Of a stretch of 54,900 nucleotides of DNA, positions 11,821-54,900 are shown piece by piece (within the stretch, counting starts at the first letter, position 1; each line of letters starts with the position of its first letter). Position numbers and translations under genes: made by a program. This DNA is from Eubacteriaceae bacterium. GTDB taxonomy: Bacteria > Bacillota > Clostridia > Eubacteriales > Anaerofustaceae. A model generated the notes under the pieces. It saw only the letters and a program-made list of their open reading frames with translations. It did not search any database and was not told where the DNA came from. Location of the stretch: NCBI GenBank assembly GCA_017531485.1, contig JAFXKY010000011.1:1-54900 (forward strand), given 5' to 3'.

Positions 11821-11940
11821 ACATAATATACAGCGGTGGAGACAAAAAAAGTAAAAATAGTGCGATTTTCCGCGTTTTTGCGTAAAGGTTGCAAAAGCAA
11901 CGGGAACATTCTCGTCCCTTCATCATTTCCGTCGCTTCCG

Positions 11941-12136
11941 CGCCCGCCCACCCGCCCGCCCACCCGCCGCAACCGATGCTTCGCATCGGTTCCCGAAGGC
12001 TCTGCCTTCGGGTGCAGACCGCCTCCGGCGGTCTGCGCGGCGCGCCGCCGCAGCGAAAGCTTCGCTTTCGCTGCAAAGAGCCGAAGGCTCTTTGCGCCCG
12101 TGCGGAGCACGGGCTGCGGCGGGGGCGGCGGGCGGG
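11941..12136. repeat. GC-rich multi-hairpin element, copy 1
   Basis: This element lies between the divergent tsaE and asd units. It has a C-rich left arm (11941-11970, six CCC runs spaced by one base), then six perfect hairpins with 3-nt loops laid end to end: stems of 9, 9, 10, 9, 10 and 8 bp at 11971-11991, 11992-12012, 12014-12036, 12052-12072, 12073-12095 and 12096-12114. The palindrome GCGGCGCGCCGC (12037-12048) is at the centre and a G-rich right arm (to 12136) can pair with the left arm. A seventh hairpin of the same design lies just outside (12150-12170). It is open in several frames only because of its high GC; I do not regard it as coding. The class is unknown to me. Confidence 0.85.
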
Positions 12137-12375: not shown

Positions 12376-12384
12376 CAGCGAAAA

Positions 12385-12560
12385 CTTAAGGTAGAGGCGC
12401 GGTCGTCAATAGTAATCTGTCTGATTCGTCGGCAAACGAAAGCGATGGCAGACGAAAGGGTATACCGCCGAGAGAAATCATATGCCGGATGATTTTTCGG
12501 TGATGCGGTCAACAACCGTCTTACTGTCATCGAAAAGATGGAGAGCTGCTAAAGTCAAAG
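12385..12560 (+). ncRNA. Lysine riboswitch (L-box)
   Basis: The aptamer begins with GGTAGAGGCGC (12390-12400), followed by the AGTA loop-E element, a GCCGAGAGAAATC/GATTTTTCGGT arm, TTACTGTCA and the closing GGAGAGCTGCT. These are the conserved landmarks of the lysine riboswitch in their right order, and the gene that follows is asd. Lysine binding should favour the terminator at 12592-12618 and turn off asd. Confidence 0.93.
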
Positions 12561-18210: not shown

Positions 18211-18258
18211 AATACAATACGCAGTTATTTTCTTTCCATTCGTCTTCGTTTCTGTAAT

Positions 18259-18427
18259 CCCCGCCCGCCTCCCCCGCGCCGCAAGCCGGAAGCTGCTCTT
18301 CCGGCTTGCCTGCCGGTTCCCGGCAGGCTGCGGCTGTGCCTTGCACAGCCGCGCGGCGCGGCGGGACTTACGGCAGAGCCGTAAGCCGCATCGTGCAAAG
18401 CACGATGCGGAGGGGGTGGGTGGCGGG
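18259..18427. repeat. GC-rich multi-hairpin element, copy 2
   Basis: The left arm starts CCCCGCCCGCCTCCCCC (18259-18275), as in copy 4. Hairpins follow at 18281-18309 (12 bp, 5-nt loop), 18308-18328 (9 bp, loop TTC), 18330-18352 (10 bp, loop CTT), then a GCGGCGCGGCGGG centre, 18367-18385 (8 bp, loop AGA) and 18386-18410 (11 bp, loop AAA). The G-rich right arm (18411-18427) can pair with the left arm. It lies between the URO-D terminator and the DUF134 promoter. The third stem, GCGGCTGTGC, is identical to one in copy 3, but the loop differs. Confidence 0.85.
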
Positions 18428-18582
18428 AAGGGCAGATGTGTAAATCAGGAAAGAAAACATACCTCACCACAAATATTAAAACCGACACTTTACTAATTTC
18501 ATATTTTTATCATTTTCCCCTGAAATTCACTTGTAATATCCCGTTTTTGATAAAATTTGAATAGTAAAAAACGCTTTTTTTA

Positions 18583-26380: not shown

Positions 26381-26510
26381 CGCTTCGCGCCACCGCGCCC
26401 GACCCCGCCTTCGCGCCGCAATCCAAAGCGAAGCTTTGGATTCGCCCGCAGGGAACCTGCGGGCTGCGGCTGTGCAGAGCACAGCCGCGCGGCGCGGGCG
26501 GGTGGGCGGG
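26381..26510. repeat. GC-rich multi-hairpin element, copy 3 (half-length)
   Basis: After a C-rich left part (to 26419) come three abutting hairpins: 26420-26442 (10 bp, loop GAA), 26444-26464 (9 bp, loop GAA) and 26466-26488 (10 bp, loop AGA). A G-rich right arm ends in GGGCGGGTGGGCGGG (26496-26510), a textbook G-quadruplex pattern. The right-hand set of hairpins seen in copies 1, 2 and 4 is missing. A further 9-bp hairpin with loop AAG (26522-26542) lies outside it and overlaps the truA stop codon. The left boundary is uncertain. It sits between truA and the rplM promoter. Confidence 0.8.
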
Positions 26511-45565: not shown

Positions 45566-45910
45566 TACCAAAACCTCCATTGTTTTTATGCGTGTCTCGG
45601 CGGTTGGCACACGCACTACGTTCCGGGTGTTCCTGTTACCTCTTTCCGCAAATTTTCTCCTTCCGAAGTGAAATTCCTCACCCCTTCGTCGGTCTTGCGG
45701 ATCGCGGAAACATTCTTCCCAAAACTTCTGCGTTACCGCCCCATTCATGATGGTGACTTGCTCCGCGGAAATTCCCCGAGCATACCCCGGCAACCTCCCG
45801 CATCATAGCCGGCTGCCAATCAGAATTTGCCTTATTATCGCGCTTTTTAACCGGAACTCGATGGCTTAAAAGCGCAACTCAAAAGCCCACTGCTGTACGG
45901 CAGCTTGTAT
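45566..45910 (-). promoter_or_regulatory. Long structured 5' leader of the S10 operon
   Basis: The transcript has about 340 nt before rpsJ. Read on the minus strand, TTTCCGC pairs with GCGGAAA around an inner CCGA/TTCGG and GTGA/TCAC stem, and GCGTGT pairs with ACACGC just before the SD. The base composition is unlike the AT-rich gaps nearby. It is a candidate site for L4- or other r-protein-mediated control, as the S10 leader is in enterobacteria. Confidence 0.6.
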
Positions 45911-52913: not shown

Positions 52914-52920
52914 ATGAACA
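52893..52920 (+). repeat. 28-nt junction repeat, copy 1
   Basis: Identical to 53745-53772. It encodes the Y-L-G-E-E stop of one protein, the SD GGGGAGG and the start of the next. Confidence 0.9.
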
Positions 52921-53765
52921 AGAGAACAAAGAAAATATTAATCATTATTTCAATAATACTGATAATTTACCTTCTCATTCCCTTCTGCAAAAATCCCGTT
53001 TCTGATTTTATAACAAGAAGAGAAGTCGAAAATTATCTTCAGGAGAATTATCCCGGCATGGGTTATGAAATCATCAGCTCGGGATTTAACTTCCTCGAAT
53101 CTCATTACCGTTATACGGTGGCAATTCCCGGAAGCAAGGATGATCACTTCGACATTCACATAAAAAAATACGGCGGAATCTATCTCGACGGATATAAGAC
53201 CGCACAGAAATTTAATATTTACGAAGCACAGATCAACGCCGCACAAAGGTTATATACCGAATACGACCGAATCGTCGAATCCGCCCTCGATATAAATGAG
53301 ATCCTTTCGGATGGCAGCCACGGCACTGTTTACGGCACGTTTGAATTCGCAACAAGGAAAGAATATGAGGAGCACAACGACATTCCCGTATATGCATACT
53401 TTTATGATGATCTTGTTGCCGATAAAGAATATGACGTAAAAGAAATGGGCAGAGATCATGGACGGGTAATCATTTCCGTACAACATGAAGAAAACATAAG
53501 TTACAGACGCGTTGCTGAAATTATTCTGTGGGCAAAGGAAAAGCTTGAGGATGCAGACATCGGCTGTTACTGCATCTACGTTTCAATCTCTTCTCCGCCA
53601 TCAGGTGAAGACGGCTCAGCACAGTATATGGATCCGTACATAGCGGTAAATGATCTTCCGTATACGGAAATAACGGAAGAAAATCTTGTAAAAAAGGTTG
53701 AAGAAAACTACAAAGCATATCTTGAGTCAACGGGAGATCCGCTGACATATCTCGGGGAGGAATAA
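52914..53765 (+). CDS. Membrane-anchored YfjL-like protein, tandem copy 2
   Basis: A 283-aa paralogue of the preceding gene, with the N-terminal membrane segment ILIIISIILIIYLLIPF, then NPVSDFITRREVENYLQENY, DDHFDIHIKKYGG and a C-terminal domain with DKEYDVKEMGRDHG, AEIILWAKEKLEDADIGCYC and SSPPSGEDG. It starts immediately after the stop of copy 1, with its SD inside the final codons of that gene, and ends with the same T-Y-L-G-E-E. Divergence from copy 1 is large, so the duplication is not recent. Confidence 0.8.
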   Translation: MNKRTKKILIIISIILIIYLLIPFCKNPVSDFITRREVENYLQENYPGMGYEIISSGFNFLESHYRYTVAIPGSKDDHFDIHIKKYGGIYLDGYKTAQKFNIYEAQINAAQRLYTEYDRIVESALDINEILSDGSHGTVYGTFEFATRKEYEEHNDIPVYAYFYDDLVADKEYDVKEMGRDHGRVIISVQHEENISYRRVAEIILWAKEKLEDADIGCYCIYVSISSPPSGEDGSAQYMDPYIAVNDLPYTEITEENLVKKVEENYKAYLESTGDPLTYLGEE

Positions 53766-53772
53766 ATGAACA
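53745..53772 (+). repeat. 28-nt junction repeat, copy 2
   Basis: Second identical copy of the gene-junction sequence, between paralogues 2 and 3. Confidence 0.9.
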
Positions 53773-54653
53773 GAAAGAAAATATTAAAAATAACGGCGCT
53801 TATCGTGGCGCTTGTGCTTCTTGGCGGTCTCGCGTGGTTTGCAAACGGAATGATCGGAAATCCCATATCAAGGCATCTCGCAACGAAGACGGCAACAAAA
53901 CATCTTGAAGCAAACTATAGTGACACGACATACAAAATCGACGAAGTCATATACTCCTTCAAAGACGGACATTATTACGCAAGAGTCTCTTCTCCCGACA
54001 GCATTGACGGAGATTTCAGCATCGAAATAAATATGCTCGGAAAGCTCATTGATGATCATTATGATACGTATGTGGCAGACGGAACAAACACCGCCCGCCG
54101 TCTTGACATGGATTACCGTCAGCTTGTCGACAGTGTATTTCAGAGTGACACATTCCCTTACGTTTCGGAGATAGATTACGGAACTCTCGAGTTTATTCCG
54201 CAGAGTTACTTCACGGATGAAAAGATCCACAATGAGGTAAAGGACCTTCATGACATCCCGTGGTACGGAATAATTTACGAAGACCTTATCATCGACGGAG
54301 TTTATGATGTACGCGAGCTCGGAAAGAAAGCAGGGCACATAATTTTATACGTCGATACAGATGATGTTACTGTCGATAACGCATGTGAAGTACTTCTGAA
54401 CGTAAAAGAAATGCTCGACAATGCAGGCATCGGATTTTACTGCATAGATCTTGTCCTTGAATATCCGCGGACTTCGGATGAACACCCCGTCAGAAAAGAA
54501 GGACGGGTTGAAGTCGAATCTTTCCTGTACACAGACATTTACGAAGACGGGCTTTTTGACAGAGTATCAGAAGCCAACGAAAAGATTGCCGCGTGGCACG
54601 CAGAGCAGGACAAGCTTTACAAGGACTTCATTCCCGAAAACACAGAAGAATAA
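53766..54653 (+). CDS. Membrane-anchored YfjL-like protein, tandem copy 3
   Basis: A 295-aa paralogue with membrane segment LIVALVLLGGLAWFANGM, then NPISRHLATKTATKHLEANY, YSFKDGHYYARVSSPDSIDG, DGVYDVRELGKKAGHIILY and AGIGFYCIDLVLEYPRTSDE. It is the copy closest to the general YfjL-like pattern as I recall it. It ends with an acidic tail (PENTEE) instead of YLGEE and is followed by a terminator, closing the five-gene sigma operon. Confidence 0.82.
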   Translation: MNRKKILKITALIVALVLLGGLAWFANGMIGNPISRHLATKTATKHLEANYSDTTYKIDEVIYSFKDGHYYARVSSPDSIDGDFSIEINMLGKLIDDHYDTYVADGTNTARRLDMDYRQLVDSVFQSDTFPYVSEIDYGTLEFIPQSYFTDEKIHNEVKDLHDIPWYGIIYEDLIIDGVYDVRELGKKAGHIILYVDTDDVTVDNACEVLLNVKEMLDNAGIGFYCIDLVLEYPRTSDEHPVRKEGRVEVESFLYTDIYEDGLFDRVSEANEKIAAWHAEQDKLYKDFIPENTEE

Positions 54654-54664
54654 GGCCAATACCC

Positions 54665-54709
54665 AAAAGTGCGGTGGAACATCTTATTTCCCCGCACTTT
54701 TCTTTTTTT
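54665..54709 (+). terminator. Terminator of the sigma/YfjL-like operon
   Basis: AAAAGTGCGG (54665-54674) pairs with CCGCACTTTT (54692-54701) and a run of seven T residues follows. Confidence 0.9.
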
Positions 54710-54714
54710 CAACT

Positions 54715-54900
54715 CCCCGCCCGCCTCCCCCGCCGCCGAGCCGTGCTGCGCACGGCTCGCAAAGAGGCTTCGCCTCTTTGCCGCGAAAGCATCGCTTTCT
54801 CGCGGCGGCGGCCGCGCCGCGCAGGCAGCCGCAGGCTGCCTGCACCCAAAGGCAAGCTTTTGGGAACCGATGCGAAGCATCGGTTGCGGCGCGGAGGGCG
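54715..54900. repeat. GC-rich multi-hairpin element, copy 4 (runs off the window)
   Basis: The left arm CCCCGCCCGCCTCCCCC (54715-54731) matches that of copy 2. Six hairpins follow: 54738-54758 (9 bp, loop TGC), 54759-54781 (10 bp, TTC), 54781-54805 (10 bp with a 2-nt bulge, loop ATC), a GCGGCGGCGGCCGCGCCGC centre, then 54821-54843 (10 bp, GCA), 54845-54864 (9 bp with G-U, 2-nt loop) and 54865-54885 (9 bp, GAA). The G-rich right arm begins at 54887 and is cut by the window end. Read in reverse, the six stems match copy 1 in order. Confidence 0.85.

Follow-up and report, generated by a model that had tools for sequence, protein, structure and literature searches.

Dispersed intergenic DNA elements built as tandem cloverleaves, with covarying hairpin arms, in the genome of an Eubacteriaceae bacterium

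We identified about 60 loci of a short, palindromic, non-coding element between the genes of the 2.17 Mb draft genome (81 contigs) to which the 54,900-nt stretch analysed here, referred to as the window, belongs; the number is a hand count over BLAST, outer-stem pattern and model searches, and in some cases a single copy that is broken at contig ends may have been counted twice. Nearly every complete copy parses by script as two tandem cloverleaves, the arms of which differ from copy to copy mostly by paired changes. The explanation that we favor, to which we assign a probability of about one half, is that these are non-autonomous REPIN- or MITE-like DNA elements of a new cloverleaf type, which would be recognised as folded DNA and whose stems would be rewritten by template switching. 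An earlier note, made from the letters of the window, had described two of the copies; its observation is right, and larger in extent than stated.

Copy 1 (11938-12136, plus strand) is a double cloverleaf; on one side of it lies a tsaE-like gene, and on the other the lysine riboswitch that precedes an asd-like gene. Its unit A spans 11964-12043, with arms at 11971-11991, 11992-12012 and 12014-12036, and scored 84 bits with model R1, which was built from 28 A units, while unit B spans 12045-12122. Copy 2 (18258-18430, plus strand) has its unit A at 18276-18359, followed by two more hairpins, which represent a degraded second unit, and a G-rich flank; copy 3 (26398-26502, plus strand) is a single cloverleaf (26413-26495) between a truA-like gene and rplM. 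The lysine riboswitch (12384-12556), at which the downstream ORF is aspartate-semialdehyde-dehydrogenase-like, and an S10-Clostridia leader (45736-45814) were the only Rfam matches in the window, and no Rfam family matched at the elements in that search.

Copy 4 (54716-54900, minus strand) is a double cloverleaf in inverse orientation to copy 1 and is cut by the end of its contig (C80), which is 54900 bases long. Unit A (54814-54892, minus strand; 80 bits with model R1) has the outer stem GCGCCGC/GCGGCGC and the arms GCAGGCAGCC (54821-54843), CCCAAAGGC (54845-54864) and AACCGATGC (54865-54885). Unit B (54730-54811, minus strand) has the outer stem CCGCCGCC/GGCGGCGG and the arms GAGCCGTGC (54738-54758), GCAAAGAGGC (54759-54781) and CGCGAAAGC (54782 to about 54804), the last of which carries one extra base on one side only. 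A terminator-like hairpin, AAAAGTGCGGTGGAA...TTTCCCCGCACTTTT, followed by a T tract (54665-54709, plus strand; from inverted repeat I14 and the sequence), stops just short of the copy. At 52914-54653, two neighbouring genes both carry YfjL_N domains, apparently a tandem duplication.

With copy 1 as the BLAST query, copy 4 showed 85% identity (E 5.5e-49). The six hairpins that the earlier note had read in both copies, in the same order and with copy 4 inverted, are all present, and its statement that stem differences are mostly compensated is borne out by the nine positions that differ, seven of which changed on both sides to another Watson-Crick pair and two of which are broken. Slot 1 is identical in the two copies; the two-sided changes fall once in slot 2, twice in slot 3, once (at the outermost pair) in slot 4, once in slot 5 and twice in slot 6, and the broken positions are a G-C to A.C change in slot 2 and the extra base of copy 4 in slot 4. 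Copy 1 contains six and copy 4 five hairpins of at least 8 bp, against a maximum of three and a mean of 0.6 in 200-base sequences simulated from the element's own dinucleotides (400 runs). Thus, the hairpin density of both copies far exceeds chance for their composition.

The same note had placed a centre between the two sets of stems. The sequence of this centre, GCGGCGCGCCGCC, is indeed there; a hairpin at this place is, however, not obligatory, as an alternative pairing exists. GCGGCGCGCCGCC equally forms the 3′ half of one outer stem and then the 5′ half of the next, so that two cloverleaves in tandem are the best reading of each copy. In the minimum-energy DNA fold of copy 1, the C-rich end closes on the G-rich end and the centre is a hairpin, whereas the RNA fold of copy 4 (-129.9 kcal/mol, z -6.9) consists of two cloverleaves, so that either conformer may be the actual one.

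BLAST with copy 1 gave 37 matches in the genome, and other queries recovered further families of the element. Model R1 gave 56 matches when both strands were counted, and the outer-stem pattern matched 30 times on the forward strand vs once in the control. The cloverleaf finder demands pairing and is biased to that extent; nonetheless, the loci that were selected purely as BLAST matches to copy 1 also parse as hairpin arrays. From the C-rich flank, the first unit runs GCGCCGC, arm 1, arm 2, a single t, arm 3 and GCGGCGC, and the second runs CCGCCG(CG), arms 4, 5 and 6 and (CG)CGGCGG, followed by the G-rich flank. Each outer stem brackets about 65 nt with three arms of 8-11 bp and loops of 2-3 nt. 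The arms almost always close as GC-nnn-GC, with a C-G closing pair in 183 of 193. Two alternative arm sets occur in the second unit, and some loci, such as L013 and L018, combine arms from different families. By hand count, an element of this kind lies within about 250 bp of at least about 33 of the assembly's 162 contig ends.

A small palindrome, TATCCCCCTTAC-n2/3-GTAAGGGGGATA, adjoins truncated cloverleaf elements, where it seems to stand in for their C-rich or G-rich ends (L005 1422-1450, reverse strand; L018 at about 1684-1710; L021 at about 1473-1500). Related motifs, CCCCTTATCC, are present in L061 and L147. Possibly, this palindrome is another hairpin element that inserts beside the cloverleaf elements.

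Covariation among aligned copies, which had been proposed as a check of the paired changes, was strong in the alignment (A1) of 28 first cloverleaves (A units). Paired cells made up 97.3% vs 82.0% in 500 shuffles; 20 of 35 pairs had a double change (11.4 in shuffles), double-change cells numbered 143 (44.4 in shuffles) and the covariation score was 0.379 (0.107 in shuffles), with none of the 500 shuffles attaining these values. When the 3′ partner was slid, the paired fraction dropped to 30-44%. In A1, the outer stem is almost invariant and is uninformative for or against structure. Random, unpaired differences between arms, which would have counted against the claim, were looked for and were not what we saw, since 49 of the 57 distinct one-pair contrasts among oriented arms were double and paired, and eight were single or broken. 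Among these 49 one-step swaps, 15 were of the transition type, which can be reached through G-U, and 34 were of the transversion type, which cannot; chance would give about two thirds of the latter type, which is nearly what was seen, so that the changes show no preference for a G-U route.

Such covariation is also expected of structured RNA, and we considered that the elements may be parts of 3′ ends, or bidirectional terminators and protectors of mRNA ends, with the stems conserved through selection on the transcript. Their position fits this reading: the elements lie in intergenic gaps (31 co-directional, 9 convergent and 7 divergent in three genomes), mostly downstream of genes, and the T tract of a terminator hairpin faces the element on 26 of 67 element sides. 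The arms are terminator-like as well, with an A-rich 5′ side and a T-rich 3′ side (371 A-T vs 160 T-A pairs), and copy 4 folds stably as RNA. On the other hand, many elements start after the terminator T tract, past the expected end of transcription, and G.T pairs are about five times rarer in the arms (35 of 2057, 1.7%) than in 156 terminator-like hairpins collected by the same rule from the same two genomes (134 of 1430, 9.4%). The whole unit has no strand polarity, as for many elements model R1 gave matches of similar score on the two strands; for the B units, the model preferred the inverted reading for several of one arm set and the direct reading for the other set. There are no conserved unpaired bases, and the loops are found in both orientations. 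Thus, the covariation of a structured RNA is present, while its tolerated G-U pairs and its strand polarity are not, and together with the absent preference for a G-U route this makes a role as RNA unlikely.

The loops point rather to DNA. Hairpins of the type d(GCGNAGC) are exceptionally stable in DNA, and 109 of 155 triloops in the arms have the form GNA or TNC, vs 10 of 51 triloops in terminators. The identity of the first loop base goes with that of the third (G..A 57, T..C 47, T..A 3 and G..C 0; Fisher 3e-27), so that loops switch as blocks between GNA and TNC. Loops vary freely among copies that share a stem. Their polarity differs between the units, with 42 TNC and 16 GNA in unit A and 5 TNC and 41 GNA in unit B. 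The arrangement of TNC in the 5′ cloverleaf and GNA in the 3′ cloverleaf, on either strand, holds for window copies 1 and 4 and for the copies of the genome generally.

Template switching between inverted repeats is known to homogenise the arms and to invert the spacer or loop (PMC8794818, PMC8604942), and both outcomes are seen among the paralogous copies; the suggestion that it operates here rests on these copies and not on observed events. The earlier note had left the choice between selection on the hairpin and a mechanism that corrects one arm from the other. Because wobble pairs are few, swaps are of the transversion type and loops invert as blocks, we favor folding at the DNA level with arm-to-arm copying over selection on an RNA. 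Selection on the folded DNA would still be required, as the outer stem is fixed and the loop type is restricted; these features and the loop polarity call for some constraint, with which selection is compatible. We infer that the rarity of wobble pairs, the transversion-type swaps, the matches on both strands and the block switching of loops reflect template switching on DNA, together with a need to keep the shape of the folded DNA.

Perhaps template switching at inverted repeats is all there is, perfecting and reshaping hairpins that have neither function nor mobility. Arm homogenisation and loop inversion are its known products (PMC8794818, PMC8604942), and in related copies of the congener described below (elements on C13, C66 and C83) stem tips have been replaced as blocks. 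Such a mutational by-product would leave unexplained why the same six arms recur in one order at roughly 60 scattered loci, the outer stem that stays constant across about 65 nt, and the restriction of loops to GNA and TNC with their polarity between units, and we regard it as improbable. The isolated hairpins maintained by template switching described so far (PMC8794818, PMC8604942) resemble the present ones in having perfect stems through arm-to-arm copying and inverted loops, including GAA/TTC spacers, but they stand in rRNA or coding genes, whereas here a whole dispersed family is concerned.

The same architecture is present in the single other genome of the genus in our comparison (G001), at which 24 three-armed cloverleaves were detected in 1.67 Mb. 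Its own outer-stem pattern gave 22 forward matches vs none in the control. The outer stem, GCCGCAGGC/GCCTGCGGC, is constant in the congener, while the arms are different in almost every copy, yet nearly perfectly paired, and the stems of the two species are almost entirely different. In another genus of the family (G007; L101, L107 and L124), we found four cloverleaves whose outer stems pair perfectly over 26-35 bp, each copy being surrounded by an inverted repeat of its own. Model R1 independently recovered the elements of the congener, as well as two of the four in G007.

Beyond these genomes, an order-wide search of 67 genomes with model R1 matched, at E 0.01, only the two genomes of the genus, and in genus g3, which belongs to the same family, outer-stem patterns found none in three genomes. 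No cloverleaf was detected in 80 loci (1.4 Mb) of other bacteria, in 414 kb of Markov-simulated sequence or in 400 kb of element-like composition; reversed sequence was dropped as a control because reversal preserves hairpins. The exact pattern of hairpin 1 had no match in 84,980 species genomes, a set that may lack near-identical genomes. A phage or plasmid origin was rejected, as no match was found in phages, plasmids or viral contigs. Our literature search returned nothing on such elements in Anaerofustis, nor on bacterial cloverleaf DNA elements.

At three orthologous places in the congener, the truA-rplM gap (the site of copy 3) and the sites of L147 and L063, the element is absent, and at the L147 site the genes are only 7 bp apart; this absence could also be due to loss. 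Of 16 gene pairs that flank an element, 4 are neighbours in the congener; the figures are 11 of 14 for pairs separated by other gaps longer than 120 bp (Fisher p 0.009) and 49 of 51 for pairs with short gaps. Elements are thus found at synteny breaks more often than other long gaps are, in a small sample in which one of the 16 pairs (copy 3) is a contig break in the congener. Between elements L006 and L007, the segment C15 43-47.5 kb is inverted in the congener (C61 55-64 kb) relative to its right-hand neighbour. Synteny breaks may, instead of resulting from the elements, attract their insertion. No target-site duplication was seen, nor is one resolvable at this divergence.

These comparisons also bear on the view that the elements serve the host chromosome, as sites for a nucleoid, junction-binding or gyrase-like protein, and have been spread and kept through that use. 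Like a binding site, the outer stem does not change within a given genome, in contrast to the arms; three arms and an outer stem make a four-way junction, and the copies are regularly dispersed between genes. However, copies are absent at the orthologous places in the congener, the stems are wholly different between two species of one genus, which is unlike a conserved host function, and none were found with outer-stem patterns in the three g3 genomes. We therefore consider it quite unlikely that host use accounts for the elements.

In anatomy, the elements are closest to REPINs and MITEs. As with REP, REPIN and BIME sequences, they are short, intergenic, high-copy and palindromic, their units are often paired, as most complete loci have two units, and the ability to form hairpins is critical; compensatory changes such as those seen here have also been reported for REPINs. 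The differences are that three arms stand on a common stem instead of a single hairpin, with two such units in tandem, that the arm feet of 64 units carry no constant GTAG/CGTC tag (GTAG or its complement in 1 of 64 units, CGTC or its complement in 10 of 64), and that no cognate RAYT (Y1 HUH transposase) was found in this genome. Since both the tetranucleotide tag and the cognate HUH transposase are missing, we did not class the element as a REPIN. In common with MITEs, they are small, non-coding and intergenic, with an outer inverted repeat formed by the C-rich and G-rich ends and the outer stem; here, on the other hand, neither a parent transposon nor a target-site duplication was found, and the internal perfect hairpins are elaborate. 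Mobile double-hairpin elements and GC-rich palindromic repeats are also known from the organelle genomes of fungi and algae. Those are likewise GC-rich, tightly looped, dispersed between genes and prone to rearrangement, whereas the present elements lie on a bacterial chromosome and have six arms in a fixed order with cloverleaf junctions.

No intact HUH Y1 transposase was detected in the genome, an absence that is not absolute as the assembly is 95% complete. The sole ORF with a Y1_Tnp (IS200-like) domain (L053 1090-1872, minus strand; 31.6 bits) adjoins an mcsA-like gene and has ILPDRANFLI at the expected place of the HUH motif; the protein looks like a domesticated or inactive member. We rejected a RAYT or IS200-type mobiliser, as this degenerate ORF is the only one here and, in the family as a whole, Y1 abundance shows no correspondence with the elements.

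Under the reading that we favor, the working feature would be a folded single strand or a cruciform, in which the outer stem and three tight-looped arms make a cloverleaf with a four-way junction, usually as two cloverleaves in tandem between C-rich and G-rich ends. Copies would spread within the genome in the fashion of REPINs and MITEs, through a putative enzyme that acts in trans and reads the folded DNA. In resident copies, DNA polymerase may switch template at the hairpins and copy one arm onto the other, sometimes inverting the loop, so that the sequence would drift while the pairing stays perfect, and selection for foldability would purge copies that lose the shape. Several points count against this reading: no mobilising enzyme was found in the genome, nor did Y1 content in the family follow the elements; no target-site duplication was seen; the missing copies in the congener may have been lost there; and the loop polarity, with TNC in unit A and GNA in unit B, is not predicted by free loop inversion.

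More tentatively, and with doubt outweighing confidence, these elements may represent a new kind of bacterial DNA, either mobile or used by the host: cloverleaves with a four-way junction that are recognised by shape, in which nothing but the outer stem and the type of loop stays fixed within a genome, and whose copies mark or cause chromosomal rearrangement. Because hairpin-templated copying would change both arms at once, the arm sequences would be replaced entirely from one species to the next. If these ideas are right, the elements would be a natural system that inherits shape while its sequence is rewritten, and they would make testable whether compensatory changes in hairpins stem from selection or from hairpin-templated copying. 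For this question, each genome offers dozens of paralogous copies, the free loop keeps a record of inversions, and the congener supplies the same architecture with different stems. The elements would also indicate that some enzyme or host protein reads the junction of the folded DNA, and they would suggest a reason why synteny, and assemblies of gut metagenome bins, break.
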